DNA of 20,977 nucleotides, from positions 1 to 20,977 of the IMG/VR virus record IMGVR_UViG_3300042898_006611; one strand, written 5' to 3'. Made by a program: the position numbers and the translations under genes. The stretch is from a virus. Shown here piece after piece: positions 1 through 18,011 of the stretch (position 1 is the first letter of the stretch; every line of letters begins with the position of its first letter). The notes below the pieces were generated by a model, which searched no databases, had not been told where the DNA came from, and worked only from the letters and a program-made list of their open reading frames with translations.

Positions 1-78
1 AGTCAATTACTCAACAAACCTGAAATCACTTTAGGTTTATCACCATTTACTTACATTTACACTTGGGCAGGTATATAA
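1..78 (+). CDS. 3' end of an unidentified protein (partial)
   Basis: Frame 1 is open from the first base and ends at TAA 76-78; the last residues read PFTYIYTWAGI. The stop overlaps the next gene's ATG as TAATG (76-80), the junction style used repeatedly in this plus-strand block, which supports a real gene end. Only 25 codons are visible, so no family can be named. Its position just before probable virion-associated genes suggests, without proving it, a structural protein. Confidence 0.6.
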   Translation, partial: SQLLNKPEITLGLSPFTYIYTWAGI

Positions 79-656
79 TGAATAATTTTATTGATGTTTT
101 AGTAGATTTAGCTAATGAACTTGACAACAATCAAGCACATAGATTAGCTGACACAATTACCAATCATATCAAGACCGCTTCTGATGATTATGACCACGAA
201 TACGATATGGTCAGAAATCAAATGGAAACTGCTGAAAGAGCTATTGAAGGTATTGAAGATGTTATTGGTGAGGATGGAGAAGGTAATTTAATGGCTTGGG
301 TACAGTCTAAAATTACTAATGCTGTCGAAATGCTAGATGGAGTTTCTGATTATTTACAAAGTCATCACAAGACTGCTTCTGACAAAAATAAGGGTAAGAA
401 ACTTAACAAGCCTTTCCGTACTCCAGGTGGTCCAAAGAAATTTTCTGTTTATGTTAAGAATGATAGTGGCAATGTAGTGAAAGTTAACTTCGGAGATCCT
501 GACAGAAGTATTAAAAGAGACAATCCTGAACGTAGAAAAAACTTTAGAGCAAGACATAATTGTGATTCTCCGGGGCCAAAGTGGAAAGCGAAGTGGTGGT
601 CTTGTCGCAATTGGGAGGCTGGTAGAACAGTTTCTGACAACCTAAAAGGCAAGTAA
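78..656 (+). CDS. Phage protein with helical N-terminal tag and conserved C-terminal FGDP/RARHNCD domain
   Basis: 192 residues from ATG 78; an in-frame TTG at 63 lies inside the upstream gene and is less likely, because ATG 78 has AGG seven bases upstream and the TAATG junction. Residues 1-35 form an amphipathic helical segment (LVDLANELDNNQ, ending HIKTAS) that resembles the N-termini of several other proteins here. The middle is acidic and helical, and a second KTASD occurs at 98-102. Residues 120-180 form a Cys/Trp-rich domain with FGDP, RRKNFRARHNCD and PGPKWKAKWWSC, a pattern I recall from many tailed-phage proteins, often fused to or near prohead core/protease genes (memory, not searched). 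Function unknown; a virion or assembly role is inferred. The stop overlaps the next start (TAATG). Confidence 0.85.
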   Translation: MNNFIDVLVDLANELDNNQAHRLADTITNHIKTASDDYDHEYDMVRNQMETAERAIEGIEDVIGEDGEGNLMAWVQSKITNAVEMLDGVSDYLQSHHKTASDKNKGKKLNKPFRTPGGPKKFSVYVKNDSGNVVKVNFGDPDRSIKRDNPERRKNFRARHNCDSPGPKWKAKWWSCRNWEAGRTVSDNLKGK

Positions 657-1459
657 TGAGAAAGTTTCATTATTTATATAAAATTACTAACAATATAAAT
701 GGTAAATATTATATTGGTAGGCATTCCACAGATAATCTTGATGATAATTATTATGGAAGTGGTGTTGGAATTGTTAATGCTATCGAGAAATATGGCAAGG
801 AAAATTTTAGTAAAGAAATTTTACATCATTGTGAAACAACAGAAGAACTTTGGGAACTTGAGCAAAAAATTGTCAATGCTGAAGTTGTAAATGATAAAAA
901 ATCTTACAATATGGCTTACGGTGGCGGAAATCACTTAAAAGAAATGAAGCAAAATGATTATGAATCATTTATAAGTCACCAAAGTAAAGCTGGAAAACTG
1001 GGTGGCCAAGCTATGTTAAAGAAGCTTGATAAAGACTGGCATGCAAAAGGTGGAGCTAAATCTAGAAGTATTCTCAATGCTCAATTTATATACCAACTAA
1101 TTACTCCTGAAAACGAAACCATAGAATTGTCTGCTTTGGAAATCAAGAATTATTGTATAGAACATAATTTAAATTATCAATCCTTAATAAGCAACCAAAA
1201 TAAAAAATTATCAAAAGGTGCTTCTGTTGGATATACACTCATAAATATTTCACGTCCATACGAAGTGAATATTGATAGAAAAATATTTACTCAAAACGCT
1301 CTTAATAGACCAAGATATATTTGTCCTATTTGTGAAAAAGATAATTTAGATGGTGGAAATTTGTCTCAACATATGAACAAAAAGCATCAATGGACTAAAG
1401 AACAAGTTATTGAATACAAAAACAATTTTACTTTGAAAACTGACGAGACCAACAAATAA
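656..1459 (+). CDS. GIY-YIG homing endonuclease (Seg-like) with C2H2 zinc finger
   Basis: 267 residues. The N-terminal GIY-YIG nuclease domain (about 1-92) shows YLYKITNNINGKYYIG with the expected Arg following (GRH, 22), then YYGSG, the glutamate region ELWELEQKIV and YNMAYGGG. The middle (about 108-140) has Gly/Lys-rich GGQAM and KGGAKSR stretches like the small DNA-binding modules of phage homing enzymes. Near the C-terminus CPIC (223-226) and H239/H244 form a C2H2-type finger. Such enzymes make a site-specific double-strand cut in DNA lacking their gene, so that repair copies the gene in. It is joined by TAATG overlaps on both sides, so it is translated within the operon. Probably a mobile passenger rather than a functional member of the block. 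Confidence 0.93.
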   Translation: MRKFHYLYKITNNINGKYYIGRHSTDNLDDNYYGSGVGIVNAIEKYGKENFSKEILHHCETTEELWELEQKIVNAEVVNDKKSYNMAYGGGNHLKEMKQNDYESFISHQSKAGKLGGQAMLKKLDKDWHAKGGAKSRSILNAQFIYQLITPENETIELSALEIKNYCIEHNLNYQSLISNQNKKLSKGASVGYTLINISRPYEVNIDRKIFTQNALNRPRYICPICEKDNLDGGNLSQHMNKKHQWTKEQVIEYKNNFTLKTDETNK

Positions 1460-2292
1460 TGAATAGTAAGAAATTTCTCAAACTTGCATCAATTTTTGAC
1501 AAGCAAGGCAATTATAAAACTTCAGATCTTGTTTACAAATTTGTTGAAGCACAAACTGATAATCTTGATGAAGATCCATTAGGCATTAGTGACATACAAC
1601 CAACAAGAATGAAAGATGATCCAATGGTTGATAAATTGAGAAAAATGGTTGCTGGTGGAGAAATTTCTGAAGTTCAATTTTGGGCAGCTTTGGAAAAATA
1701 TAAGCCCGGAACTTTTCAAAATATGTTGAGCAATGTAGGCAGAGCTGGAGAAAGTGATGTTGACAAGATTCAAAGTAATATTTCTGCTCAAGGTGTAAGG
1801 GTTAATCCAAAAGAGAGAGATATTCTTGCTCAATTTTATGAACTTTCCAATGATGTATTTGTAGATTTTATAGATTCATTGCAATCTAATTTTGCATCTG
1901 TTTTAAGAACAATGTCAAGAAAAGATGAATTGCCAGAGATGTTCCAAGAAATAAAAGACCACAGAGCTGGAAATCTTATAATGGAACTTCAAGAACCATC
2001 AACCAAAGAAGAATTCCTTACTAGAGAATATCTTGAATTAAGAGCAAAGGGAATTGGTCTTCAAGATGCAATTGAAATGGGCACAAATGGTGAATATTCT
2101 AATGTTGATGAATATTTGAAAACATTTGTTATGAGTCAGGTTCCTACAATCACTGCTAAAGCATCGAGAATTACAGGTTTAAGATATCAAGAAGATGATG
2201 TTGCTAGAAAATTATCTGATGTCACTATGAACACTTTGAATGAAACTATAGATAATTCTCTCACCGAATTGTACTACATCTATAAGGGATAA
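1459..2292 (+). CDS. Unknown 277-residue phage protein, tag-like N-terminus
   Basis: I do not recognise the family. The start ATG overlaps the endonuclease stop (TAATG). The N-terminus contains FLKLASIFDKQGNYKTSD, which follows the same 'LxxxAxxxDxxGNxxxAD' layout as other probable virion proteins in this window, although here the KLA motif comes early. The rest is predicted to be soluble and mainly helical: acidic and lysine-rich, no cysteine clusters, signal peptide or membrane segment. Residues 40-75 have a PMVDKLRKMVAGGEIS stretch, and the C-terminal third is rich in Glu, Leu and Asn. Five bases separate it from the next gene, whose ribosome site (AGGG) overlaps its last codons. A structural or accessory virion role is inferred from context only. 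Confidence 0.8.
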   Translation: MNSKKFLKLASIFDKQGNYKTSDLVYKFVEAQTDNLDEDPLGISDIQPTRMKDDPMVDKLRKMVAGGEISEVQFWAALEKYKPGTFQNMLSNVGRAGESDVDKIQSNISAQGVRVNPKERDILAQFYELSNDVFVDFIDSLQSNFASVLRTMSRKDELPEMFQEIKDHRAGNLIMELQEPSTKEEFLTREYLELRAKGIGLQDAIEMGTNGEYSNVDEYLKTFVMSQVPTITAKASRITGLRYQEDDVARKLSDVTMNTLNETIDNSLTELYYIYKG

Positions 2293-2297
2293 AAATA

Positions 2298-3782
2298 ATG
2301 TGGTATAGATTAGCTTACGGCAAGCCTAAATTATTAATTAATCCTATTGTAGGTGGATTTTGGGTAGGAGATAGGCCTATTCATTATGGTGAACAATTTG
2401 GTGTAATTGAATTAAGAAAACTATTACAAACAGGTCCTTCTAATATCAACACCCAAGAAAAATTAAATTCCTTTTTATCTAATCCTAATCGGTTTGAAAT
2501 AATAGATGGAAAGAGAATATATCTTAGAGATGTGAGTTCACAAGCCAAGAGTTTGGTAATTCCTTTTGATTTTTATGTTAATAATCTAGAGATTAGAAAA
2601 GATGAAGTCTTTAGTTTTAAAGAATTAAAAAAACTTTTACAAACATTTGGTCCAAATATAAATACCCAAGAAAAATTAGATTCTTTTTTATCTGACCCTA
2701 ATCGGTTTAAAACAATAGATGGTAAGAAAATATACATAAGAACTCCAGTAGGTCAAAGTAGAAATTTAATAATTCCTTTTGATTTTTATATTGGTGAAGA
2801 GAAAATTCAAAAAGATCAAGTTTTTGGTGTAAAAAAATTAGAAAAATTATTACAAACAAGACGTAAGAATATAAATACTCAAGAAAAATTAAATTCTTTT
2901 TTACTTAATGCTGAATTCCGAATTAATGAAAATGGCAATAATCAATATTTACCATTTAAAGGATCATTAAGAGAAAAATATATAAATAAAAATTTAAATA
3001 TTACAAATGAACATCATATAAAAATTGAAATCCAAAAACCAATTACGGTGTCAAATCCTGGAAAATCGATTAGAATTTTAAAATTAGATTTGGCTTTCGT
3101 AGAAGATGGAAATATATTATTGGCTACTGAAATAAATGGTGGACAACATTATGGGTTTGTGCCATTTGCATCAACAACAACATATGAGTATTGGCAAACT
3201 ACTTTAAAAAGAGATGTAGAAAAAATAAACTATTGTCATAATAATAATATTCCATTGTTAATTTTCAATCATTTGTTACCTGAAAAATATTTTAGAACAA
3301 TAATTGATAATCTGAATAAAAATCCACATATGTATGATAGTTATATTCCTCAATCTGTTATAGTTAATAATGAAGTTAATGATGTAGCCGACATGTCATT
3401 AGAATTTATTAGGAGACAGATTTATTCTCATTTGTATCCTGTGTTTAAAGGGATAATTAGTTTTGATGATGATATATCCAAGAAGAGATATATTAAAGAT
3501 ACATTGATATTAATTGCTAAGTTGTTAGGTATATACAATGGTGGAATTGATAAAACAGATTATATCAGAGCTTTTGATGCTAATGTAGATCTCACTGAAA
3601 ATTATAATATTTGTTTAAATATATATAATAGTTTATATCCTGATTATCCATTAGATTCTGAAAATAAAATTACATATAATGATTTATCTGTGAAACAACA
3701 AATTAGTAAAATTAAAACAAAACAAATAGAAGAAAACTTAATTCCCTCAGAAGAATTTAAGGATAAAAATTATGTGGTATAG
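2298..3782 (+). CDS. PD-(D/E)XK-type endonuclease with three tandem N-terminal repeats
   Basis: 494 residues, start MWYRLA with AGGG upstream. Residues about 20-210 are three copies of a roughly 71-residue unit (landmarks ELxKLLQT, NINTQEKLNSFL, NPNRF, IDGKxIY, IPFDFY); the third copy is cut short. Residues 255-325 look like a restriction-endonuclease fold: LDLAF (Asp 264), then EINGGQHY (Glu 278, His 284), KRDVEKINYC and NNIPLLIFNH. This follows the 'D...ExxGxQHY...RDxxKxxYCxxNxIxLL' pattern of phage and bacterial PD-(D/E)XK enzymes, with Asn where E-x-K normally has Lys. The C-terminal 170 residues are unassigned. It is visibly more A+T-rich than its neighbours, consistent with transfer. 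The repeats may recognise DNA; a free-standing homing endonuclease is the likeliest role. Its last codons overlap the next start by 11 bases. Confidence 0.75.
   Translation: MWYRLAYGKPKLLINPIVGGFWVGDRPIHYGEQFGVIELRKLLQTGPSNINTQEKLNSFLSNPNRFEIIDGKRIYLRDVSSQAKSLVIPFDFYVNNLEIRKDEVFSFKELKKLLQTFGPNINTQEKLDSFLSDPNRFKTIDGKKIYIRTPVGQSRNLIIPFDFYIGEEKIQKDQVFGVKKLEKLLQTRRKNINTQEKLNSFLLNAEFRINENGNNQYLPFKGSLREKYINKNLNITNEHHIKIEIQKPITVSNPGKSIRILKLDLAFVEDGNILLATEINGGQHYGFVPFASTTTYEYWQTTLKRDVEKINYCHNNNIPLLIFNHLLPEKYFRTIIDNLNKNPHMYDSYIPQSVIVNNEVNDVADMSLEFIRRQIYSHLYPVFKGIISFDDDISKKRYIKDTLILIAKLLGIYNGGIDKTDYIRAFDANVDLTENYNICLNIYNSLYPDYPLDSENKITYNDLSVKQQISKIKTKQIEENLIPSEEFKDKNYVV
2355..2927 (+). repeat. Three tandem coding repeats of about 213 bases
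   Basis: Within the nuclease gene, three diverged copies follow each other at a period of about 71 codons (protein residues about 20-90, 91-161 and 162-210, the last partial). The best conserved part codes for NINTQEKLNSFL, present three times with one substitution. Copies differ mainly at third codon positions, so the amplification is not very recent and the repeats are under protein-level selection. They are directly adjacent protein repeats without spacers, so this is not a CRISPR array. Confidence 0.85.
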
Positions 3783-4542
3783 AGAAGCAGCTACAAGAGT
3801 TGATCCTAGTGGTCAAATAAATATGGATTTTCCTGGTATCAAACCTAAGCCATTTGACTTAAAAAATGTCAAGTTTGAAATTAACGAACCATACCCTGAT
3901 ACTTATTCTATAACTGCTAATATTTATGGGAAAAATATAGGTTACATAGATTTTGATGCTAGTGACCTTTCAGATACTGCTAAGATTCTATTAGTATCTT
4001 TAAATGAATATCCATCTTATTCTCCAAGAGAAGAATGGGAAAAACCTATCAATTCGTCAGATAGAACAAAAATGGATATGAATGTTGAATTAAGAGATGC
4101 TGGATATGATGTTGATGAATCTTCAATATCCAGAACAAAATGGGGTTTGGGTAAGAGATTGTATCAAGAAATGAAAAAATTTCTGCAAAAATATAAACCA
4201 TCAATTAGATTCATATCTGGAGATGTTCATTCTAGAGATGCTTTTCAAGTAAGAAATTCAGTATTTGGTCTGCCTGTAGAATCTTACGACCCTGCAGAAT
4301 CTTATGGATACAAAATAGAAGAAAAAACTCCAAAACAAGAAAGAAAAGATTTGGCCAGAAAGATGCCTTATGAACTTTTGCCAGCAAGATTTGATGCTAT
4401 GGGAATAGGTGATATTCCTCCAGATAGTTTTATGGTCAAACATCGTCTAAAAAGAATTCCATATAATAAAACACAGAAATATATGGATTCTACAAAAATA
4501 TCTAAACCAGATTCTTCGGAGGACAATTCAGATGTGGTATAA
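3772..4542 (+). CDS. MWY-tagged protein, possible GNAT-like acetyltransferase fold
   Basis: 256 residues, start MWYREA with AAGGA eight bases upstream; ATG lies 11 bases inside the previous gene. Residues 44-75 (YSITANIYGKNIGYIDFD, then ILLVSLNEY) and 122-165 (TKWGLGKRLYQEMKKFLQKY followed by IRFISGDVHSRDAFQVRN) have the order of a GNAT fold: central strands, a Gly-rich loop (W-G-L-G-K) before a helix, a strand, then an S-R-x-A-F helix like the 'N..A...y...GF' end of acetyltransferases. The loop lacks the full R/Q-x-x-G-x-G/A acetyl-CoA signature, so the call is tentative. The C-terminal 80 residues are basic and unassigned. It ends DVV-stop, overlapping the next gene's ATGTGGTAT start by 11 bases. 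Confidence 0.7.
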   Translation: MWYREAATRVDPSGQINMDFPGIKPKPFDLKNVKFEINEPYPDTYSITANIYGKNIGYIDFDASDLSDTAKILLVSLNEYPSYSPREEWEKPINSSDRTKMDMNVELRDAGYDVDESSISRTKWGLGKRLYQEMKKFLQKYKPSIRFISGDVHSRDAFQVRNSVFGLPVESYDPAESYGYKIEEKTPKQERKDLARKMPYELLPARFDAMGIGDIPPDSFMVKHRLKRIPYNKTQKYMDSTKISKPDSSEDNSDVV

Positions 4543-5572
4543 ATTTGCTGCTTTTGGCACTATAGATTTACAAAAGTATATTTCTGAAAATGAAGGCGAA
4601 GATTATAACTTTGAAGCTGAACTTGAAGCCCTATTGCAATCTGGTGTAAGCCCTAATTTTGGAGTTATCTATTTTCATAAACTAAATGAAAATTTAGCAA
4701 AATCAAAATTACAAAACTATATTTCTTCATTTGTACGAATTAGGACTGATAAAGCTTTAGCAACATTTGATCCAGTTACTAAAGAAGTTGGATTAAGAGA
4801 TTTACAACGTGGCGATACTATTGATGATATGGCTCAATCAATTAAACACGAATTGAGACATTCAGTAGATAAAGGACGAACTTACAGAAAACCTTATATA
4901 AGTAATCTTGCACTTGATATGGCTGTCGATTATTTTAGTAAATACAAAGATCAATTAGTAGATCCTGCCACTAAACAACTTAAAGATGATCAAGACAAAT
5001 TAATGCTTATGATGATATATGATTATTTGTCAACTAAAATGACAGATTTATTTATGAAATTGCCTTCAGATAGAAAGGCACAACAAGTAGCAAAATTTGT
5101 TGATAAATTAATCAAGAGACCTGATCAAGTTTATGAGGTATTTCAAAGATTAGCCTCTGGTGAAGATGAAAAGAGCGTTATATCTTATTTTAACGTCAAT
5201 CATCCTCAAGAATATACCACGCTTCTTTCTGATATAAATGATTTTTTTAGTCCAGCTGTATTTAATAAGTTTGCTGAAAAATATTCTTTCTTAGATAAGC
5301 AATCCATAGTAAAAGCTTTAAAATTTGTTATTCAAGATCCGATGAGTTTAAATGCATCAAATGTTCTTAAAGATATAAGTTGGCAAGGTGAATATTTAAT
5401 ATCACAAATTTTACAACACACTGAAAATGAACAAATGAGAAGAAATGTTTACAAAATTATTTATGATAATTTTCAAAAATTTCTTGAAGAGTTTATGAAA
5501 GAACCCGCAGAAACAAAAGAGCCAGATCAATTCAAAGAAGCTAAGAAAGGCTACAAAATCACAAGACAATAA
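4532..5572 (+). CDS. MWY-tagged putative zinc metallopeptidase (HELRH)
   Basis: 346 residues, start MWYKFA with GGAGG nine bases upstream. Residues 106-110 are HELRH, matching HExxH, in the context SIKHELRHSVDKG: a helix with two zinc-binding His and a catalytic Glu, as in peptidases with 'HElxHaxD' motifs. A strand-like stretch before it (RIRTDKALATFD, VGLRDL) fits the edge strand of a zincin fold. The third zinc ligand is not obvious. The remaining 220 residues are helical, Lys/Asp-rich and unassigned. No signal peptide or membrane segment. It could be a virion-borne or maturation protease, or an inactive relative. It is the last gene of the plus-strand block and is followed directly by a strong terminator. 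Confidence 0.75.
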   Translation: MWYKFAAFGTIDLQKYISENEGEDYNFEAELEALLQSGVSPNFGVIYFHKLNENLAKSKLQNYISSFVRIRTDKALATFDPVTKEVGLRDLQRGDTIDDMAQSIKHELRHSVDKGRTYRKPYISNLALDMAVDYFSKYKDQLVDPATKQLKDDQDKLMLMMIYDYLSTKMTDLFMKLPSDRKAQQVAKFVDKLIKRPDQVYEVFQRLASGEDEKSVISYFNVNHPQEYTTLLSDINDFFSPAVFNKFAEKYSFLDKQSIVKALKFVIQDPMSLNASNVLKDISWQGEYLISQILQHTENEQMRRNVYKIIYDNFQKFLEEFMKEPAETKEPDQFKEAKKGYKITRQ

Positions 5573-5599
5573 AAAAGAGGGATAAAATCCCTCTTTTTT
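5571..5599. terminator. Bidirectional rho-independent terminator
   Basis: A perfect 12-bp stem (AAAAAAGAGGGA paired with TCCCTCTTTTTT) around a five-base loop TAAAA, with a T run on the plus strand and the complementary T run on the minus strand. It lies between convergent genes and overlaps both stop codons, so it can end transcripts from both sides. Confidence 0.9.
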
Positions 5600-6110
5600 A
5601 GTATGTCATAAGATAGTAAGACCAATACTCATCTTCTTTATCAATTGGCCTATTTAAAAGATAATTGAAGGTATATCTTGGCACTTTAGGTTTGCTCAAT
5701 AATTTCATTCCAGATAGTTCTAATTTCTTACCACCTTTCTTATGGTTACAATCAGAACAACAAGTAACAAGATTTTCCCAAATATGTAAACCACCCATAT
5801 GTCTAGGATGTACGTGGTCAAGAGTTAAGTTTTGTTTTCTACTTCCGCAATATTGACAAGTAAAGTTATCTCTGCTAAAAATTCCCATCCTGCTGACTTT
5901 GTAAACAGGATTACCCTTTTTCTTTATGTTATATTTTAAACGGATGACAGATGGAACTTGAAATTGTTGACCAGCTCCTGTAAAAAAATAACTGTCGTCT
6001 TTGAAATGTAGAGTTTCAGCTTTGTTCATTATTAAAAGCTTCATTGCTCTAGATAAGGAACATACATATAATGGTTCGTAGTTTAAATTTAGCAGTAAGA
6101 TTCTGTTCAT
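5598..6110 (-). CDS. HNH endonuclease
   Basis: 170 residues. N-terminal part (LLLNLNYEPLYVCSLSRAMK and VIRLKY) matches the common bacterial and phage HNH family whose members begin 'VLxLNxxYEPLxVxSxxRA'. The HNH core has zinc pair CQYCG (85, 88), LTLDHVHPRHMGG (His 99), WENLVTCCSDCNHKKG (Asn 113, Asn 122, second zinc pair 118 and 121) and the usual 'M.LL..PKVPR' tail. All catalytic and zinc positions are present. The gene runs opposite to its surroundings, is closed by the shared terminator and has its own promoter-like sequence. The start ATG has no clear Shine-Dalgarno. It could be a homing-type or packaging-associated nuclease; this family also occurs as ordinary chromosomal genes. Confidence 0.93.
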   Translation of the reverse strand: MNRILLLNLNYEPLYVCSLSRAMKLLIMNKAETLHFKDDSYFFTGAGQQFQVPSVIRLKYNIKKKGNPVYKVSRMGIFSRDNFTCQYCGSRKQNLTLDHVHPRHMGGLHIWENLVTCCSDCNHKKGGKKLELSGMKLLSKPKVPRYTFNYLLNRPIDKEDEYWSYYLMTY

Positions 6111-6120
6111 TTCAAGATAA

Positions 6121-6149
6121 ATTATACCGTATGCAGATTAGGCTGCAAA
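6121..6149 (-). promoter_or_regulatory. Sigma-70-like promoter for the HNH gene
   Basis: On the minus strand TTTGCA (6149-6144) is followed after 17 bases by a perfect TATAAT (6126-6121), 11 bases before the HNH start codon. The -35 matches consensus at four of six positions. The leader would be very short, which fits the lack of a ribosome site. Confidence 0.5.
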
Positions 6150-6167
6150 GATTTTAGGATAAAAAAA

Positions 6168-6470
6168 ATGAAGTTAGATTCAACAAATTTTTATGACAAT
6201 ATTAGTGATGGCAAAGTATTAGTTAAGTTTGAAGCAACTTGGTGCGGACCTTGTAAAGCTTATGCTCCAACATTCAAGCAATTTTCAGAAGAGAATAGAA
6301 GTGTAAAATGTTTTTCTTTAGATTGCCAAGTTGCTCCAGAGATTGCAGAAGATTTTGATGTTAAATCTATCCCAGTCACTATTCTTTTTAACAATGGCGA
6401 AGAAATTGCAAGAAAACCTGGGAAGTTAAGTAAAGAAGAACTCTCTGATTTTATTGATCAAGATTTCTAA
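6168..6470 (+). CDS. Thioredoxin
   Basis: 100 residues, close to the usual 105. It has the thioredoxin-fold order: strand VLVKFEATW, active site CGPC (26-29), helix KAYAPTFKQFSEE, strand VKCFSLDC, then SIPVTILFNNG with the cis-proline at 69, and a C-terminal helix. The Trp before CGPC is kept. It reduces protein disulfides in the cytoplasm; in phages such proteins can supply electrons for ribonucleotide reduction or act as polymerase cofactors (no such partner is visible here). Start ATG has AGGA eight bases upstream. It is divergent from the HNH gene and ends in its own terminator, so it appears to be a separate one-gene unit. Confidence 0.95.
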   Translation: MKLDSTNFYDNISDGKVLVKFEATWCGPCKAYAPTFKQFSEENRSVKCFSLDCQVAPEIAEDFDVKSIPVTILFNNGEEIARKPGKLSKEELSDFIDQDF

Positions 6471-6504
6471 ACAAAAAGCTTCTGTAAAGGAAGCTTTTTG
6501 TTTT
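6471..6504 (+). terminator. Rho-independent terminator after thioredoxin
   Basis: A perfect 12-bp stem ACAAAAAGCTTC / GAAGCTTTTTGT with seven-base loop TGTAAAG, followed by TTT, beginning at the first base after the thioredoxin stop. The stem is flanked by A's and T's on both sides, so it may also work on the minus strand. Confidence 0.9.
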
Positions 6505-6526
6505 CAAGGTTTTATTGAGTCTAGTT

Positions 6527-6532
6527 TATAAT
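6527..6532 (+). promoter_or_regulatory. Possible -10 element (TATAAT)
   Basis: A perfect TATAAT 34 bases before the ATG at 6567, just after a terminator, where a new promoter is expected. No convincing -35 hexamer lies 16-18 bases upstream (TTCAAG or TCAAGG), so it may use another sigma factor or an activator. Confidence 0.4.
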
Positions 6533-6566
6533 ACTTAAAATAATAGTTTTGTTTTAAGGTGAAAAA

Positions 6567-6842
6567 ATGAACGACGAAATTTTAAATAAATTGCATAAAA
6601 TTGCAATGGCTTTTGAAGACAATGGTAATGAAGAATTAGCAAATGAGCTTCACGATGTATTCTTAAAATTATCTGCTAAGAAAAAGAAGAAATCTGGCAA
6701 GAATGTACCAAACGATCCTGCTTTATATTCAAGATGCAAAAGTGAAATAAAGAAGAAATTTAAAATTTATCCAAGTGCCTACGCAAATTTAAGCCTAGTT
6801 AAGCTTTACAAGTCTCGTGGTGGAACATATAGGAAAAATTAA
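6567..6842 (+). CDS. Small phage protein, tag plus YPSAYAN domain; 3' end altered by insertion
   Basis: 91 residues, AAGGTG before the ATG. Residues 1-36 are the helical tag (IAMAFEDNGNEELANELHD, then FLKLSA), followed by a lysine-rich linker. Residues 50-90 form a compact basic domain (ALYSRCKSEIKKKFKIYPSA, AYANLSLVKLYKSRGGTYR) that I recall as a recurrent domain in tailed-phage proteins (memory only); function unknown. The last codons are unusual: the stretch coding for SRGGTY is repeated in frame at 7582 after an inserted HNH gene, where it continues as SSK-stop. The present RKN-stop ending is therefore probably a replacement created by the insertion. Probably a virion-associated or DNA-binding protein. 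Confidence 0.85.
   Translation: MNDEILNKLHKIAMAFEDNGNEELANELHDVFLKLSAKKKKKSGKNVPNDPALYSRCKSEIKKKFKIYPSAYANLSLVKLYKSRGGTYRKN
6815..6832 (+). repeat. Left copy of 18-base direct repeat flanking the HNH insertion
   Basis: TCGTGGTGGAACATAtAG; it recurs at 7581-7598 with one difference (t/c). Both copies are in the same reading frame relative to the interrupted gene and code for RGGTY. Confidence 0.85.
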
Positions 6843-6882
6843 TCAAAAAGGGATAAACATCCAATTTCCGTAATAATATACT

Positions 6883-7578
6883 ATGGAAAAAATATGCTTA
6901 ATTTGCAAAGAAAAATTAGATCATTCGTGTTTTCATAAAAACAAAACTAAAAAAGATGGTTTATGTACTTGGTGTAAAACTTGTGTTCTTGAAAATAGAA
7001 GAAAAATTAGACGTGAGAATGGTATAGAATCTAGAAGAATAGGTCCTGATCCTGAAAAGCGTAAAATTAGTCAAGAGAATTTCAAGGCTAGAAAAGAAGA
7101 AACTTTTGTTTACACTAAAACCGAAAAAGAATGTTCTACTTGTGGAATTGTAAAAACTGTTTGTGAATTTAAGAAACGAATTTTATTTATAGATGGTTAT
7201 TCTTCAAAATGCAAAAAATGTGAATATGAAATAACTACAAATTCACGAAAAGCATATGAATTGAAGCATTGGATTAAAAAATTATTTCATAGTGCTAAAA
7301 AACACGCTAAATCTGAAGTGGAAATTGATGAAAATTTTATTTTAGAATTATTTGAAAAACAAAATGGTAAATGTTATTGGTTTAAAGTAGATTTAAAACC
7401 ATCAAATATTGCTAAATATCCTTGGCAGCCTTCTTTGGATAGACTGGATAGAGATAAAGGATATACAAAAGATAATGTAGTTTTAGCTTGTTATTCTGCA
7501 AATATAGGTAGAAATACGGCTTCAGCAGAAATATTTAATATGTTTGTGATTGATTTAAAGATGGCACTCAAAGATTAA
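6883..7578 (+). CDS. HNH homing endonuclease with two zinc ribbons, inserted in the 3' end of the preceding gene
   Basis: 231 residues. Two Cys4 zinc-ribbon modules come first: CLIC (5, 8) with CTWCKTC (28-34), and CSTC (84, 87) with CKKC (110, 113). The C-terminal nuclease core reads QNGKCYWFKVDL, then PSLDRLDRDKGYTKDNVVLA and CYSANIGRNTAS, the pattern of HNH/His-Me enzymes that use 'SLDRID...GYxxxNVxxxC..xN.xR'; catalytic positions are Asp 186/189, Asn 198 and Asn 207. No strong ribosome site precedes the ATG, and an A+T-rich stretch just upstream may hold its own promoter. The repeats at 6815 and 7581 and the leftover in-frame tail after it show that it entered an existing gene. Confidence 0.9.
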   Translation: MEKICLICKEKLDHSCFHKNKTKKDGLCTWCKTCVLENRRKIRRENGIESRRIGPDPEKRKISQENFKARKEETFVYTKTEKECSTCGIVKTVCEFKKRILFIDGYSSKCKKCEYEITTNSRKAYELKHWIKKLFHSAKKHAKSEVEIDENFILELFEKQNGKCYWFKVDLKPSNIAKYPWQPSLDRLDRDKGYTKDNVVLACYSANIGRNTASAEIFNMFVIDLKMALKD

Positions 7579-7580
7579 CT

Positions 7581-7608
7581 TCGTGGTGGAACATACAGTT
7601 CAAAATAG
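7581..7608 (+). pseudogene. Remnant C-terminus of the interrupted 91-residue protein gene
   Basis: CGT at 7582 begins codons for R-G-G-T-Y-S-S-K and TAG (7606-7608). The first 18 bases (7581-7598) repeat 6815-6832 with one mismatch. Removing the intervening segment rejoins the gene in frame as ...KSRGGTYSSK-stop, nine bases before the next ATG, and the stop then overlaps that gene's AGGA ribosome site. This looks like the ancestral 3' end. Confidence 0.8.
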
Positions 7609-7617
7609 GAAAATAAA

Positions 7618-8742
7618 ATGGCATTTGAATTAGAAACTACTTTACCTTCAGGGGTAACAGGTAATTATTGGTATTTAGGTTTTGTTCAAGTTATCACAAA
7701 CGATCAACCATATTGTATCGTTTCAATGGACCTTTATTTGAACAGACAAGCAAAATTAGATGGCAAATCAATTATGGAAAGAAGAAATACAAATATGCTT
7801 CTTTCTGAGATTGATGCAAGTGTATCTTACGACTTCAGAGTTTGTATTTATCATGCATTACAACAAAGAGCAGAATGGCAATCCTCTGTTTATGTTTATG
7901 ATGATCCAGAACCAAACCCTAAATGCCAAGATGCAACTGTCACTACTCAAATGGAAACATCTGTAGACATTTCCATTAGTGCTTATGATCCATACAATGT
8001 TCCATTTGCAATTTCTGTTATTGACCAACCTACTAATGGAACAATTCAACAAAACTTAACAGAAATTCAATTTGGTGGCGGAACTTTATCAATTCCAGTA
8101 TTTACCTACACACCTAACGCTGGATATGCTGGCTCCGATTCATTTACATACACTGCAACAAATGATAATGATGTCGTAGGTAATACTTCAACAATTTCTG
8201 TTACAATTCCAAGCTTGTACCCTGTTGTAGTTGACGTATCATCAGAAACATTTATGAACAATTCTGTTGATATTGAACTTGAAGCAACAGACCCACAAGA
8301 TTTACCTTTAACATTCAATTTAGATAATCCAACACACGGTACTGTTTCTATTGTAGACAACACAGTTACATATGTTCCAACCACCGATTACATTGGTTCT
8401 GATTCTTTTGAATTTACAGCTGATAATGGCACTTATATGAGTCAAACAGCCACAGTTAATGTAACTGTAAACACCACAGTTCCAGTAGCAAGTGATGTGT
8501 CTTCATTCACTACTAAAGATGTGTCAGTTGATATAACTGGTAGTGCAACAGATCCTCAAGGTTTACCTTTAACTTATTCTGTTGACACTCCACCTGCAAA
8601 CGGAATTGTTCTAGTAAATAATGGTATTTTCAACTACACTCCAAATACAGATTATATTGGTTCAGATAGCTTTACATACAAAGTAAATAACGGTACTCAA
8701 GAAAGTTTACCAGCTAATGTAAGCATTGTTGTAGGTCAATAA
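7618..8742 (+). CDS. Virion protein with three Ig/cadherin-like repeats
   Basis: 374 residues. Residues 1-100 form an N-terminal domain with no match I can name (contains SMDLYLNRQAKLDGKSIMER). Residues about 103-198, 203-285 and 288-372 are three beta-sandwich repeats, each with a 'TDPQxLPLTF/Y' strand and a closing motif: YTPNAGYAGSDSFTY (164-178), YVPTTDYIGSDSFEF (252-266), YTPNTDYIGSDSFTY (340-354). These are Big/cadherin-like tandem domains common in bacterial surface proteins and in phage tail, fibre and capsid-decoration proteins, where they bind carbohydrate or cells weakly. No signal peptide, which fits a virion component. Strong ribosome site AGGA. It starts a compact four-gene run. 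Confidence 0.88.
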   Translation: MAFELETTLPSGVTGNYWYLGFVQVITNDQPYCIVSMDLYLNRQAKLDGKSIMERRNTNMLLSEIDASVSYDFRVCIYHALQQRAEWQSSVYVYDDPEPNPKCQDATVTTQMETSVDISISAYDPYNVPFAISVIDQPTNGTIQQNLTEIQFGGGTLSIPVFTYTPNAGYAGSDSFTYTATNDNDVVGNTSTISVTIPSLYPVVVDVSSETFMNNSVDIELEATDPQDLPLTFNLDNPTHGTVSIVDNTVTYVPTTDYIGSDSFEFTADNGTYMSQTATVNVTVNTTVPVASDVSSFTTKDVSVDITGSATDPQGLPLTYSVDTPPANGIVLVNNGIFNYTPNTDYIGSDSFTYKVNNGTQESLPANVSIVVGQ

Positions 8743-8743
8743 A

Positions 8744-8893
8744 ATGGAAAAGAAAGAAGAAAAAGTAGCAGATAATTTACTTCAAGATATCAATACAGTC
8801 ATTTCAGAATTAGAAGAAGCTGAATTGGAAAAAGAAGCTTCAATCTTACATAAAATTTTTATCAAACTTTCAAAATCATTAAAAAAGAGATAA
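8744..8893 (+). CDS. Small 49-residue helical protein
   Basis: ATG 8744 lies just after the stop of the repeat protein, with AGGT seven bases upstream; the frame runs to TAA 8891-8893, four bases before the next ATG. The product is charged and helical. Its second half (ELEKEASILHKIFIKLSKSL) resembles the second half of the helical tag in neighbouring proteins (A-x-x-L-H-x-x-F-x-K-L-S), as though the protein were mostly tag. Function unknown. Filling the gap exactly, with a ribosome site, is the main support. Confidence 0.7.
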   Translation: MEKKEEKVADNLLQDINTVISELEEAELEKEASILHKIFIKLSKSLKKR

Positions 8894-8897
8894 TAAA

Positions 8898-9320
8898 ATG
8901 CAATCAGATAAATTAAGATCATTAGCTGAACTTGCTGAAATATTAGAATCACAAGGCAATATTGTTGAAGCTAATAGAGTACACAGTATGTTTGTCAAAG
9001 AAGCTGCAGAATTCAAGAAAAAATATAATGTTCCTTTTCCTATGAATCTTGATGACGCTTTAAACAATTATGATTCTGAAAATTATCAAATTGATTCTGA
9101 TGGAAGCTGGGAAAATGCTGAACCAATTTCTGATTTTAGAGAAGAAATGTCAGATGCTGATTTACATCAACCAGCTTCAGTAGATGAAAATCATATAGTT
9201 TTTTACAATGAAGACGAAGATCACATTGAAGTTATGAATGTAATTCCTGAACATCATCTTGATTCTTTGCATAAAAACCCTAGTGAACAAACCAGATTTA
9301 TCAAAAGAGCAAAAGACTAA
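8898..9320 (+). CDS. Unknown acidic phage protein with helical tag
   Basis: 140 residues. Residues 1-37 are one of the clearest helical tags (LAELAEILESQGNIVEANRV, then MFVKEAA). The rest is strongly acidic (IDSDGSWENAEPISDF, NEDEDHIEVMNVIPEHH), probably soluble, and has no family I recognise. The start follows the 49-residue protein by four bases with a weak GAGA ribosome site, and its stop overlaps the next start as TAATG, so the genes are translationally coupled. A virion or scaffold-type role is inferred from context. Confidence 0.8.
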   Translation: MQSDKLRSLAELAEILESQGNIVEANRVHSMFVKEAAEFKKKYNVPFPMNLDDALNNYDSENYQIDSDGSWENAEPISDFREEMSDADLHQPASVDENHIVFYNEDEDHIEVMNVIPEHHLDSLHKNPSEQTRFIKRAKD

Positions 9321-10129
9321 TGGAAAGATTTAGAAAAATTGAAGCTAAATCTAAAATGCATCCTGGAGGGCTCAAGGATTGGGTTGAGAAAGAGCGCTGG
9401 GTTGATGTTAGAAGACCTAAAGAAGATGGTGGATATGAACCTTGTGGAAGAAATGATACTTCCAAAGGTTCTAAGCCTGTCTGTGTTCCTACTAATAAAG
9501 CTAAAAGTTTAGATAAGAAAGAATTAAAAAACAGAAAAAGACAAAAAGCTAAGAAAGAAAAAGAACCTAATCCTGGCAAAAAACCAAATACCACTACCTA
9601 TACTGAAGAAGCTGGTGGAAAATCAAAAGAGTCTAATAATAACAATATAAGATTCATTGGTAGTATGATTCCTCTATCAGAATTACGACCAATTGAACCA
9701 AGATTTGTAAAGATTGCTTTGATGGGTGAAGAAGACGAAATTCCCTCAACAGATATATCTAATTTATTTTCAGAATCAGACAAAGAAGTTGATGAAGTTG
9801 TAGAAAAAGTAATTAAATCTGCAACAAGAGTTTTAGGTGGTATGTTTGAGGGTGGACTTACTGGACCTGGAGATGTTGGATCTACTAAATCTTCATCGCT
9901 TTCAAATTTTTTGACAGAAATTAGGGATGCTGATGTAAGTCAAATGGATGAAAAAGAATATTTGAGATTTGTTAAAATAACTGGTCAAATTAAACGTGTT
10001 ATTTACAAGCAAGCAGTTGATAACAATGATTCCAGAATGCACGAAATTGCCCATAAAATGCTACTAAATGGAACAAATCCTTTTAGTCATTCAGATATAG
10101 CAGAAATCGTAAGAGAAGTGTTAAAATAA
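9320..10129 (+). CDS. Unknown protein with a Cys/Lys-rich N-terminal domain (possibly DUF5872-like)
   Basis: 269 residues. Residues 14-80 contain PGGLKDWVEKERWVDVRRP, then GGYEPCGR and KPVCVPTNKAKSL, followed by a long lysine/arginine-rich helix. This resembles a small domain found in phages, large DNA viruses and bacteria that I believe is catalogued as DUF5872 (from memory, unverified); its function is unknown. Residues 80-110 are a disordered Asn/Pro/Lys linker. At 128-134 it has RFVKIAL, similar to the K-x-A end of the tags in neighbouring genes, and an acidic helical C-terminus follows. TAATG coupling to the upstream gene. It is the last plus-strand gene here; three bases separate its stop from that of the convergent glycosyltransferase. 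Confidence 0.8.
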   Translation: MERFRKIEAKSKMHPGGLKDWVEKERWVDVRRPKEDGGYEPCGRNDTSKGSKPVCVPTNKAKSLDKKELKNRKRQKAKKEKEPNPGKKPNTTTYTEEAGGKSKESNNNNIRFIGSMIPLSELRPIEPRFVKIALMGEEDEIPSTDISNLFSESDKEVDEVVEKVIKSATRVLGGMFEGGLTGPGDVGSTKSSSLSNFLTEIRDADVSQMDEKEYLRFVKITGQIKRVIYKQAVDNNDSRMHEIAHKMLLNGTNPFSHSDIAEIVREVLK

Positions 10130-10132
10130 TTT

Positions 10133-10849
10133 TTACAAGTTCATAAAACTCGTATCATAACCATTCCACTTTTTATTAAATAACTTTTTTGAAGCAATAA
10201 GATTTCTTTTGTGACCTTCAGTTAATAAAGCTGAAGATTTATTTCCGTAGTGGTGCATCTTACTTCCAGCTACAAACCCGTGCTTAATATTTTTCTCATT
10301 GAATCTCATCATAATGTCCATATCTTGATGATAATGAATAAATTGTTCATCTAATGGGAATAACCAGTCTCTAGTTTCAGCTGTTAGAGTTAAACACCAC
10401 CCAGCAAAAGAATAGGCTTTTAGTTCAATTTTCACAAGATTATCTGGGGTGTAATAATGTTTAAAATAATCAGATTGATTATTATGTGATTGAACTGGCA
10501 TTGTAGACTTAGGAGAAGCTGCATCTAAATTATATTTTTCAAATGCATTCTTCATTTTAGTCCACCAAGTTTTTGAAAAAACTATATCGTTATTAGATAT
10601 ACAAGTATATTTTCCACTGCAATAACTATAGCCCAAATTCAAAAAAGCATTGTAATTAAAATCAATATCAGGGATCAAATATTTGTCAACATCAAATTTA
10701 TATTTTGAGTTTTTATTTGATTCTATAAGAATGATATTTACATCTTCTAAGCCATCTGATAGTCTCAAAGAATTTACTGCTTCTGAAGTCATCTTGTACA
10801 TATCATCATTGGCAGTGTTGGTAAGTATAATTATATCTAAATCGTGCAT
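10133..10849 (-). CDS. GT2-like (GT-A fold) glycosyltransferase
   Basis: 238 residues. N-terminal Rossmann-like start LDIIILTNTANDDMYKMTSE, strand VNIILIESN, then CISNNDIVFSKTWW (86-88 NND at the DxD position), SFAGWCLTLTAETRDWLF, the acidic motif HQDMDIMMRF (174-183) and the GFVAGSKMHHYGNKS end. This order is that of GT2 family enzymes, with the second acidic motif (usually E-D-x-D) as QDMD. It would transfer a sugar from an activated nucleotide donor. In phages such enzymes decorate DNA bases, virion proteins or host surface glycans; nothing nearby decides which. It follows the upstream gene by seven bases and is last in the minus-strand run. Confidence 0.85.
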   Translation of the reverse strand: MHDLDIIILTNTANDDMYKMTSEAVNSLRLSDGLEDVNIILIESNKNSKYKFDVDKYLIPDIDFNYNAFLNLGYSYCSGKYTCISNNDIVFSKTWWTKMKNAFEKYNLDAASPKSTMPVQSHNNQSDYFKHYYTPDNLVKIELKAYSFAGWCLTLTAETRDWLFPLDEQFIHYHQDMDIMMRFNEKNIKHGFVAGSKMHHYGNKSSALLTEGHKRNLIASKKLFNKKWNGYDTSFMNL

Positions 10850-10856
10850 AGTTCTT

Positions 10857-11270
10857 TCAATTATACTTAAAAATATTGATTTTCTTAGCTAAAATCAAAT
10901 CCCAAATCAGCCTCAATCTTCCCATAAAAGAGAGGCTGATTTCTTTTTCAATAAATTCTTCTGCAGTTTCAATCAACACTTCATCAAGATTATTTGTATT
11001 AGGTGAATAATCTGAATTTATAGAGTCAATAACAAACTCTAAATAATTGCTTGCTACTTTATCTTCTGGAACGAAAATCTTTAAAAATTCTTCGTGATGA
11101 AAAAGGGCTAAGTTATCATTTTCACAAGTAGCCCAATCTCCAGCGTCAACTTCCAAACTCATATCTGTGCCTGGAATATTGATAAATTCAGATTCAAAGA
11201 AATATCTTGCTAATACTTCTCTTCCATAAGCATCCACAAAAGAAGAATATAAATAACGATTTTCTAACAT
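10857..11270 (-). CDS. Unknown 137-residue acidic protein
   Basis: I do not recognise it. The first two thirds are acidic with aromatic residues (YLYSSFVDAYGREVLARYFF, LEVDAGDWATCENDNLALFH), followed by a helical EVLIETAEEFIEKEIS segment and a C-terminal stretch FMGRLRLIWDLILAKKINIF that could be an amphipathic or membrane-touching helix. AGGA lies six bases before the ATG. It is seven bases downstream of the sigma factor stop and seven bases upstream of the glycosyltransferase, so it is cotranscribed with them. Confidence 0.75.
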   Translation of the reverse strand: MLENRYLYSSFVDAYGREVLARYFFESEFINIPGTDMSLEVDAGDWATCENDNLALFHHEEFLKIFVPEDKVASNYLEFVIDSINSDYSPNTNNLDEVLIETAEEFIEKEISLSFMGRLRLIWDLILAKKINIFKYN

Positions 11271-11277
11271 ATGATTC

Positions 11278-11856
11278 CTAAAGTGAGTTTTCAGCTAAAT
11301 TCTTTTCACGAAGTTTTTTGATTGACTTATTAGCAGTGTTGTTGATTGCTTGCCTACTTACATTGTACATAATTGCCACTTCATCATATGTGTAGCCCTC
11401 AATATAAATTAAATTAATTATTTCTTTTTCTTTAGGAGATAAAGAATTTAATATTTCATCTAATTGTATTTTTTTGTCTACAGAAGAATTGTCTGAAAAT
11501 GGATGTTCGTGATCTGATCCATTGTCATATAAGAAATCATTATGTACGAGTTCAGGCTTTTGTTTAGTTTCATCTCTCAGAGCTTTGTTTGGAATTTTGA
11601 TCAATCCAGTGTCAGCTCTAAAATAATGGCTTAAATAAAAATTTATATAATTGTGAAGATGTGTGATAAGTTTTGTATTTCTGCTCGGATCATAATTTCT
11701 ATAAGCTCTAATTGCACTAACTTTAGCTTCTTGCAATATATCTTCTAAAGAATACTTCCTATTATATCGAATATAACTTTTGTTTGCCAATTTGTAAATT
11801 AGCTTTTCATAATCACGAAGTACTTTTTCTTCTTTACGCTTATCAATAGTTGTCAT
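11278..11856 (-). CDS. Sigma-70-family RNA polymerase sigma factor
   Basis: 192 residues from ATG 11856, chosen because GAGGG sits five bases upstream and it avoids overlapping the preceding gene; an in-frame ATG at 11916 would add 20 residues. Region 2 spans about 14-80 (YEKLIYKLANKSYI, SLEDILQEAKVSAIRAYRNY, then HNYINFYLSHYFR), region 4 about 134-185 (LNSLSPKEKEIINLIYIEGY, then TYDEVAIMYNVSRQAINNT, a helix-turn-helix for the -35 element). Regions 1 and most of 3 are missing, as in compact alternative sigma factors. It would direct host RNA polymerase to a subset of phage promoters. An acidic linker (95-130) separates the two domains. Confidence 0.9.
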   Translation of the reverse strand: MTTIDKRKEEKVLRDYEKLIYKLANKSYIRYNRKYSLEDILQEAKVSAIRAYRNYDPSRNTKLITHLHNYINFYLSHYFRADTGLIKIPNKALRDETKQKPELVHNDFLYDNGSDHEHPFSDNSSVDKKIQLDEILNSLSPKEKEIINLIYIEGYTYDEVAIMYNVSRQAINNTANKSIKKLREKNLAENSL

Positions 11857-11885
11857 ATAACCCTCACACTTATAGACCTTAACTA

Positions 11886-12506
11886 TTAACTTTTTGTTCT
11901 CGCATAACTCTTCCAAACTTCTAAATCAAAATCTGCAACATTTTTATTATTCTTTTCGCACCATTTCAAAAACATATCTTCCCAAAATCTATAAGTTAAA
12001 GGAATGACAGGTGTAGATTTAGGTGCTCTTTCATCAATATTTTCTTTGATAAATTTTAAAATATGAGTGTCCAAGATTGCAATTTTGTCTTTGTAAAATG
12101 TGTCAGAATGTAAAAGAAAAAATCTACTAGTTTTCATTCCAACGCCAGGAATTTCTTCTAATATTTTTGGTGTCATTCTGTTCAAATTATATTCACGTTC
12201 AGAAATATATTTGAATCCAGAAAAGATTTTCTTATATTGACCTAGTTTCGCTAATTTGATTTCTTCAAACAAAATACCGTGTTGTTCTGCGCTTTTAATT
12301 GTTTGAAATGGCTTTACATTTTCTGGCATCATCAATCTTTTATTAACAGAACACAAAAATTGTTCAAGTTTTTCAGCTTGTATGTATGCAGTTTTTCCAG
12401 CCACTACAATGCAAAACAAGAGGAAAAGCTGAAGCTCTTCCTCTGTTCTGGAATAATTAGTAATGTTGTAAGGATCAATCTTCTTCGTCGTCATCATCGT
12501 CTTCAT
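11886..12506 (-). CDS. HhH-GPD DNA glycosylase / AP lyase-like protein
   Basis: 206 residues. The helix-hairpin-helix is ILEEIPGVGMKTSRFFL (115-131) with Lys 125 at the position of the catalytic lysine of bifunctional enzymes (endonuclease III, Ogg), and the catalytic aspartate is in AILDTHILKF (Asp 146). The C-terminus lacks the four cysteines of the endonuclease III iron-sulfur cluster. These enzymes remove damaged bases and cut the abasic site in base excision repair; the base specificity cannot be read. The start overlaps the end of the upstream gene by 32 bases (through its acidic tail codons) with no ribosome site, suggesting translational coupling; ATGs a few codons in are alternatives. 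Confidence 0.85.
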   Translation of the reverse strand: MKTMMTTKKIDPYNITNYSRTEEELQLFLLFCIVVAGKTAYIQAEKLEQFLCSVNKRLMMPENVKPFQTIKSAEQHGILFEEIKLAKLGQYKKIFSGFKYISEREYNLNRMTPKILEEIPGVGMKTSRFFLLHSDTFYKDKIAILDTHILKFIKENIDERAPKSTPVIPLTYRFWEDMFLKWCEKNNKNVADFDLEVWKSYARTKS

Positions 12507-13122
12507 TTGATAGTATCATATCACCTTTTGATATGAAATCAAATATAGAGAGTTGTCTTTCCCATTCAACAACCTTTTTTGTTGCTTTTACGAAATTCTT
12601 ATTCCTAGTGCTTTCTTGCCTATCTGATTTTACATATTCAGCATAAGGAGATAATTGTTCCCAAGTAAGATTTTCATTGATCCAATCTAGCATCAATTGA
12701 GGATCTTGTAATGCTGGGTCTTGATCATCAATATCATTTTCATCAAAATCAAGCATTGCATTACGTAAAGACAATACATCTAAAAACTTAATGGAAAATT
12801 GTGCTTTGTCTGGAAATGTAATTATCAAATCTTTACAAAACAATTTATTTTTATTGATTTGATACTCATCAAATTCTAACATCCAACTGTCAAAAAAATC
12901 AAATGCTTCAAAATCTTGTGATATTTTTTTCTTTAAAAAATTTGTTATTTCAATTTTTGTTACATCAAAAACCATTCCAAAATCATCTGAATTGTAAAGA
13001 AGATTATTTTTATGAATAGTTTGATGCACCAAAGAAGCAATTAAACTTTCCGATTCCATTTGAAAAACATTCTTACCAATTATTACTGGTATTCTTTCAG
13101 GAATCTCGATATCAGTCGTCAT
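12475..13122 (-). CDS. Unknown protein with acidic C-terminal tail
   Basis: 215 residues, not recognised. It has alternating strands and helices (IPVIIGKNVFQMESESLIAS, KIEITNFLKKK, KDLIITFPDKAQFSIKFLD) and ends in NEDDDDDEED. Acidic C-terminal tails occur in single-stranded-DNA-binding and other replication proteins, where they recruit partners, but nothing else here supports that role. ATG has AAGG six bases upstream and lies 11 bases inside the preceding gene (ATGACGACTGA). The codons of the acidic tail also carry the start of the glycosylase gene in another frame, so part of the tail may reflect that constraint. Confidence 0.75.
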   Translation of the reverse strand: MTTDIEIPERIPVIIGKNVFQMESESLIASLVHQTIHKNNLLYNSDDFGMVFDVTKIEITNFLKKKISQDFEAFDFFDSWMLEFDEYQINKNKLFCKDLIITFPDKAQFSIKFLDVLSLRNAMLDFDENDIDDQDPALQDPQLMLDWINENLTWEQLSPYAEYVKSDRQESTRNKNFVKATKKVVEWERQLSIFDFISKGDMILSNEDDDDDEED

Positions 13123-13414
13123 TTAACGCCTTAGCGACTCTTTCGTAGTCTAACAAATACATATCGTCTTCAACATCGCCATTGTCAGTTACGAACTTAA
13201 CCTTGCCAACACGAAGCCCGATGTCTTTCATAAAACGCTTTGGATCTTCACCATTAATTTTGACTACAGGCTTGAAATCAATAGCAGTATCAGCAAAGAA
13301 TCCAGTCCACATACTCATTTGCTTTTCTTTCAAGAACATCCATACTGCAAAGAACTCTTCTAATGCTACTGCTTGAGCTTCAGACAAGTTGTCAAATTCA
13401 ACATTAATTTTCAT
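13112..13414 (-). CDS. Conserved small phage protein of unknown function
   Basis: 100 residues with an excellent ribosome site (CAGGAG) before the ATG. It starts INVEFDNLSEAQAVALEEFF, a pattern I recall in small hypothetical proteins of many phages ('FDNxTExQAxALxxMF', then 'FFxD...FxPxVxxNG'); the match continues here with GFFADTAIDFKPVVKINGED. No function is known to me. Probably an alpha/beta protein of about 11 kDa. Its last codons overlap the next start by 11 bases. A TATAAT at 13437-13432, inside the end of the polymerase gene, could serve as a -10 element but lacks a clear -35. Confidence 0.8.
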   Translation of the reverse strand: MKINVEFDNLSEAQAVALEEFFAVWMFLKEKQMSMWTGFFADTAIDFKPVVKINGEDPKRFMKDIGLRVGKVKFVTDNGDVEDDMYLLDYERVAKALNDD

Positions 13415-13432
13415 AACGATCTCCTGTTTTTA

Positions 13433-14617: not shown

Positions 14618-14624
14618 GTAATCA

Positions 14625-14981
14625 CTATACCATAAATGGCACAGCAAGATTCAACTCAACTAACTTTTTATTTAAACAAATCCAAAGATTGTCTGCTTCT
14701 TTGTAATATACCCAAGCCAAATATCTACCATATTTTTCTTTGCTATCTTTTTTAGTTAAGATACAAACTTCTTTATTCAAAAGAACATCTTCAACAAACT
14801 TTTTACTAGCCAATCCTGCAGTTCTATTTTCGCCTTTGATTTCAGGAGTATTTACTTCTGCAAGCCTAAATTCCATCTTTTTTGCACTGACATTGAAACC
14901 TAGATCTACGTCACCATAAATTGTATCTCCATCGACAATTTTGGTCACTGTAATCTTATAATGATATAAAAATTCTGTCAT
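14625..14981 (-). CDS. Staphylococcal-nuclease-like (thermonuclease) protein
   Basis: 118 residues, a minimal OB-fold SNase domain. KIVDGDTIYGDVDLGF carries the first calcium-site aspartate, FRLAEVNTPEIKG gives the catalytic Arg and Glu (R..V.TPE), and KYGRYLAWVYY supplies the second catalytic Arg; LVELNLAVPF is the family's closing helix. The second aspartate of 'VDTPE' is Asn here, a change also seen in other members, so activity is plausible but not certain. No signal peptide, so it acts inside the cell or in the virion. It starts two bases after the small membrane protein's stop and ends seven bases before the polymerase start. Confidence 0.88.
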   Translation of the reverse strand: MTEFLYHYKITVTKIVDGDTIYGDVDLGFNVSAKKMEFRLAEVNTPEIKGENRTAGLASKKFVEDVLLNKEVCILTKKDSKEKYGRYLAWVYYKEADNLWICLNKKLVELNLAVPFMV

Positions 14982-14983
14982 AT

Positions 14984-15148: not shown

Positions 15149-15160
15149 TTCCAATACCCC

Positions 15161-15206: not shown

Positions 15207-15221
15207 ATATATTGGCAAAAA

Positions 15222-16835: not shown

Positions 16836-16837
16836 AA

Positions 16838-17938: not shown

Positions 17939-18011
17939 CTTGATCCCTTGAATTTCATTATCAACTTCTTTCATCTCGTTTGAACCTGACCCCATATTGT
18001 ACAAAGTATCA

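Follow-up and report, generated by a model that had tools for sequence, protein, structure and literature searches.

Modular tags that may target unrelated proteins of huge phages to the capsid, with a predicted [KR]-x-A cleavage motif

Introduction

In huge phages, most genes have no assigned function, and the proteins injected at the start of infection are largely unknown. A readable tag on such proteins would yield a list of injected-protein candidates from sequence alone. The window analysed here, which is an entire virus fragment of 20,977 bases, raises the question of why five of its proteins open with a similar pair of helices and then continue into different domains. The sequence-only reading of this DNA proposed that the shared opening ends in K-x-(A/S), that it may be a sorting tag, and that a prohead protease could cut near its end. 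On the strength of sequence comparison with related genomes, we consider it probable that this helical hairpin, together with a six-residue form MWY[KR]xA, serves as a capsid-targeting tag in a clade of huge phages akin to Bacillus phage G in their head genes.

Results

All five proteins named in that reading (beginning at positions 78, 1459, 6567, 8744 and 8898) are present in the left half of the window. Three MWY[KR]xA starts, at 2298, 3772 and 4532, were missing from its list and are included below. Bit scores are from the hairpin HMM, with the second value obtained without orthologues in training.

78..179, plus strand: N-terminal hairpin tag of a 192-aa protein (78-656); MNNFIDVLVDLANELDNNQAHRLADTITNHIKTA, then S; 20.2 bits, 17.0 without orthologues
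1459..1551, plus strand: N-terminal hairpin tag of a 277-aa protein (1459-2292); ends FVEA, then Q; 13.4 bits, 11.4 without orthologues
2298..2315, plus strand: minimal tag MWYRLA, read from the sequence, at the start of a 494-aa protein (2298-3782)
3772..3789, plus strand: minimal tag MWYREA at the start of a 256-aa protein (3772-4542); the G002 orthologue also has MWYREA
4532..4549, plus strand: minimal tag MWYKFA at the start of a 346-aa protein (4532-5572); the G002 orthologue also has MWYKFA
6567..6674, plus strand: N-terminal hairpin tag of a 91-aa protein (6567-6842); ends FLKLS, then A; 11.9 bits, 13.9 without orthologues
8744..8872, plus strand: hairpin module forming nearly the whole of a 49-aa protein (8744-8893); ends FIKLS, then K; 24.7 bits, 18.8 without orthologues
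8898..9005, plus strand: N-terminal hairpin tag of a 140-aa protein (8898-9320); ends FVKEA, then A; 18.6 bits, 16.2 without orthologues

The hairpin HMM was trained on a single related genome, G001, and then scored against the 28 window proteins. The five named proteins took the top five places at 24.7–11.9 bits, and the sixth protein scored 2.9. When three orthologues were dropped from training, the same five remained on top (18.8, 17.0, 16.2, 13.9 and 11.4 bits; next, 5.0). Shuffled N-termini exceeded the weakest of the five (11.9 bits) in 2 of 14,000 cases, and N-termini from other phages reached at most 7.3 bits. An iterated profile found 62 domains of at least 14 bits among the 1,089 proteins encoded by the window together with three relatives, for which gene starts in the metagenomic genomes are calls from a simple script. 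Because this profile contains these very sequences, the argument is carried not by its raw scores but by its controls, wherein reversed proteins reached at most 6.3 bits and ten shuffled proteomes gave one match of at least 10. The proposal of a module shared by five proteins is therefore borne out by a profile that random N-termini do not match equally well. AlphaFold2 models the tag of protein 8898 as a helical hairpin, with helices at residues 2-18 and 22-43 (pLDDT 93).

The proposed K-x-(A/S) ending survives in part. The hairpins end in K-x-A in proteins 78 (KTA-S) and 8898 (KEA-A), in K-x-S in 6567 (KLS-A) and 8744 (KLS-K), and in VEA-Q, with no K, in 1459. Thus, [KR]-x-A directly after helix 2 is missing in three of the five. 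Two of these three have K-x-A in helix 1; protein 1459 carries K-L-A inside that helix, and KVA lies close to the start of 8744. The motif K-x-[AS] by itself is too common to count as evidence.

The downstream parts are unrelated, as had been claimed, and belong to distinct recognised families. The cargo of protein 78 includes a phrog_7595 basic domain (residues 96-179, by PHROG match), and its homologues in other phages align only from residue 74 onward. Protein 6567 carries DUF5872; DUF5872 proteins of other phages start just ahead of this domain and lack the hairpin. In protein 1459, the tag is 58% identical to that of its G002 orthologue and the cargo 30%. Among the relatives, hairpins are followed by GH108, LysM, DUF5872 and other domains that are mutually unrelated, and MWY tags by DnaJ, NUDIX, NUDIX-HAD and PcfJ domains. 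One short sequence is therefore found on several unrelated proteins, as is the case for capsid-targeting sequences (CTS) of the T4 type.

The minimal form MWY[KR]x[AS] begins 33 proteins in G001-G003 in addition to the three in the window, and Gln is the next residue in 11 of the 33. This six-residue form has no hairpin, yet it keeps [KR]-x-A. Across the three genomes we list 93 tagged proteins. The hairpin of relatives can also lie internally (four modules) or at the C-terminus (nine modules).

Neither tag occurs on the other window proteins recognised by Pfam, which comprise HNH, thioredoxin, glycosyltransferase, sigma factor, Ogg-type glycosylase, Y-family polymerase, SNase, RuvB-like, Thy1 and chaperonin proteins. 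The last of these (15222-16835) is a phage-encoded chaperonin of the GroEL type (Cpn60_TCP1, 3.6e-73).

Capsid and protease genes are absent from the window, and the link to head genes goes via relatives. The closest relative of protein 6567 is encoded in the 300-kb contig G001, whose MCP is 50% identical to gp27 of Bacillus phage G and whose portal is 30% identical to gp14. We fetched 80 related capsid loci; in one of these capsid contigs, G003, window protein 8898 also has a 64% homologue, the one relative given by a search for related loci with this protein. The corresponding search with window protein 1459 gave none. The tagged block of the window is conserved in G002, where the orthologue of 8744 retains FIKVSK. 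The number of hairpin copies per genome is 26 in G002, 17 in G003, seven in G004, six in G005, and five each in G006 and G009; a profile search found none in G007, G008 or Bacillus phage G. Separately, G001 holds large arrays of related tail-fibre-like genes at 1-18242 and 36000-56000, with repeated MATYYVRPDG and MAIF/MAIY starts.

Near the capsid gene of these relatives, a protease domain is followed by a scaffold-like region in one protein of 1,350-2,390 aa. This fusion is represented by 73 sequences (L051:3272-7462 and 72 relatives) across a large clade of huge phages, and mycobacteriophages of cluster C seem to have the same arrangement (Wally gp96, 1,370 aa). The protease domain matches the head maturation protease family phrog_18299 (E 5e-18), and its homologues are annotated as prohead protease. 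His126 and Ser177 are invariant in 22 protease sequences and, judging from their position, are presumably catalytic. A PDB sequence search with the protease profile returned nothing relevant. When the AlphaFold2 model was submitted to Foldseek, T4 gp21 chains (5jbl) were the top three PDB matches (prob 1.00, E 9e-4 to 2e-3), and the closest predicted fold was that of phage G gp19 (5e-21). These models indicate that relatives of the window encode a prohead protease with the T4 gp21 fold. Several protease-scaffold genes (L087, L089, L081, L088, L093, L100 and L130) also contain insertions whose starts look intein-like (CF.PGT.VLT.., CFPPDAPVL..) and which split the prohead protease at or beside the catalytic SMGC motif or the later Cys, apparently in three different positions.

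The search for a cut motif compared each of the 400 a-x-b patterns in scaffolds with block shuffles. In a control scan of T4 gp22, L-x-E and I-x-E ranked first and second, which is the known gp21 site, so a scaffold scanned in this way can reveal a cut motif. The huge-phage scaffolds did not return x-x-E; [KR]-x-A appeared instead. K-x-A ranked first of 400 in the distant group (862 vs 445) and R-x-A first of 400 in the close group (186 vs 94), where the z-scores are pooled over related scaffold sequences and so overstate independence. The signal is weaker in single proteins, as in the G001 fusion alone (26 vs 18.7, p 0.05). K-x-A was also ranked first in the scaffolds of mycobacteriophage Wally gp96 and Tunturi_5 gp332. 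Scaffold sites have hydrophobic residues before them and Ser, Tyr or Gln after.

The same motif emerges from whole proteomes. Among N-terminal residues 2-46, K-x-A ranked 1, 1 and 3 in G001-G003, with no enrichment internally. The [KR]-x-A excess in each genome is centred on the head cluster (p 0.003, 0.004 and 0.0004) and is absent from the capsid protein itself. At the third position, enrichment was seen for A only and not for S, G, C or T. [KR]-x-A is thus common to tags and scaffold, and some tags end instead in K-x-S or V-E-A, neither of which is backed by the scaffold statistics. The suggestion of cleavage near K-x-A/S can be retained in a narrower form, as a predicted cut at [KR]-x-A that, by analogy, is taken to fall after Ala. 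K-x-S was considered as a second cut motif and found no support, as it is not enriched in scaffolds.

We reasoned that a site serving cargo release should separate the module from its cargo. With sites placed by HMM columns, [KR]-x-[AS] follows helix 2 in 47 of 52 N-terminal modules and in 2 of 9 C-terminal ones (p 5.5e-5), and 8 of 9 C-terminal modules and 23 of 52 N-terminal ones have the helix 1 site (p 0.026), both p-values being optimistic because the nine C-terminal modules derive from about three families. A C-terminal module that ends its protein also leaves little room for a site past helix 2. In C-terminal modules, the site has shifted to the side that faces the cargo.

Distant relatives carry the hairpin at the C-terminus of a protein whose gene lies immediately upstream of the protease-scaffold. 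We considered whether these proteins are portals and ruled this out, since the gene sits between portal and protease; it belongs to no recognised family.

Discussion

The best reading of these data is a set of modular tags with a predicted [KR]-x-A cut in place of x-x-E. Because the tags each carry a motif that resembles a prohead-protease cut site, the label probably marks proteins for packing inside the virus particle. The evidence comes from sequence and structure prediction, and consists of the recurrence of the module, its unrelated cargo, the protease fold, the enrichment of [KR]-x-A and a site whose place depends on module orientation. All of the evidence from sequence agrees with the original idea of a sorting tag with release by a protease, in which packaging and cleavage are the inferred parts. 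During prohead formation, the hairpin would dock the tagged protein on an internal scaffold core that is fused to the prohead protease. The mature protease would then cut at [KR]-x-A beside the module, with further cuts at many scaffold sites, within the N-terminal segment of the protease itself and in other head proteins. Set free inside the shell, the cargo would be packed alongside the DNA and carried into the next host. To a more specific proposition we give slightly better than even credence, namely that a position-independent hairpin "zip code", functional at either end of a protein or inside it and releasable by a gp21-fold protease switched from Glu to [KR]-x-A, marks 20-40 proteins per genome for the virion, with a J-domain protein, enzymes such as NUDIX hydrolases and perhaps a superoxide dismutase among the cargo.

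An alternative that we regard as unlikely, though not negligibly so, is that the hairpin is an uncut docking or assembly module of another phage structure, such as a nucleus-like shell or a complex for replication or tail assembly, and that K-x-A at its end is merely part of a helix. Internal and C-terminal positions are consistent with this proposal, as is an AlphaFold2 model of the isolated peptide in which the site lies inside a continuous helix, which is unusual for a cut site. Against it, no residue class is more enriched in the protease-scaffold than the one at the hairpin end, the site changes side with module orientation, the MWY tags keep the motif without any hairpin, and distant relatives place the module on the protein just upstream of the protease-scaffold.

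It is very improbable that a host protease, and not the prohead protease, reads the K-x-A tags as signals for degradation or processing. Degrons can likewise be short and N-terminal, but this explanation accounts neither for the concentration of [KR]-x-A in head-cluster proteins and scaffold nor for its presence in the scaffolds of both Mycobacterium and Acidobacteriota phages. We attach equally little weight to the view that the tagged proteins are old paralogues with a common ancestral N-terminal domain and diverged downstream parts. Some copies are plainly paralogous (the MNKRQI... group), but the downstream parts fall into distinct recognised families, the module varies in position, and homologues of the cargo occur elsewhere without it. 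Chance likeness of amphipathic helical N-termini, which the low pairwise identity among tags (11-28% to the first sequence) might suggest, can be dismissed given that a profile from an independent genome cleanly sets the five proteins apart and that shuffled, reversed and other-phage controls fail.

The simplest account is that capsid targeting in this clade may work like the T4 CTS, but that both the tag and the predicted cut differ. In T4, the internal proteins IPI-III carry a CTS that gp21 cuts (Mullaney and Black 1996, cited in PMC9024508 and PMC5694885). It is likewise a short N-terminal sequence on unrelated packaged proteins, and its prohead protease shares the fold and has a three-residue cut motif repeated along the scaffold. 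However, T4 cuts C-terminal to glutamic acid, as do phiKZ, 201phi2-1 and SPN3US (PMC5694885), where we predict [KR]-x-A; its CTS spans 10-20 residues, rather than a 35-residue hairpin or MWY[KR]xA that may also be internal or C-terminal; and here the protease is fused to the scaffold.

The jumbo phages SPN3US and phiKZ (gp245, A-X-E) resemble our clade in that many head proteins shed N-terminal propeptides, of 20-254 residues (PMC10052503). The paralogues gp53 and gp54 have identical first 15 residues (PMC5694885), and in SPN3US Ser is preferred at P1' (PMC10052503), much as Ser is enriched after K-x-A in the present scaffolds. They differ in the cut after Glu, and neither a protease-scaffold fusion nor, in PMC10052503 and PMC5694885, a hairpin module has been reported for them. 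The CTS of P1 DarB (PMC9024508), likened here by description, is also a head-protein signal able to target a foreign protein to the capsid, but it is a single reported signal and not a module repeated on dozens of proteins. Bacillus phage G shares the MCP and portal similarity noted above, and its gp19 protease is rich in K-x-A. In contrast to our clade, no hairpin copies were found in it, gp19 is not fused to a scaffold, and the N-terminal K-x-A signal is weak.

We found no virion proteomics for this clade in the open literature, and the text of the Tunturi 5 paper mentions none; the portions of the literature available on the cluster C phage Myrna gave no N-terminal data for its MCP. Phage G and relatives in mycobacteriophage cluster C, which are already in culture, would allow the prediction to be tested. 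It assigns a putative new specificity to a well-studied protease fold, and the module could have use as a packaging tag.

Three minor observations concern other candidate signals. Phage G proteins gp13, gp20, gp38 and gp57 (L049) have MKRLIKKAS-like starts, possibly that phage's own short tag; genome-wide, K-x-A is outside its top N-terminal patterns. An Fe/Mn superoxide dismutase of G001 (30478-31170; L034:11481-12170, minus strand) has a 27-residue N-terminal extension with LLKLAG, and the G002 copy is without LLKLAG. Finally, the window protein at 9320-10129, which has a phrog_23735 basic domain, contains an internal PRFVKIAL, scores 5.5 bits with the hairpin profile and may include an internal module in degenerate form.
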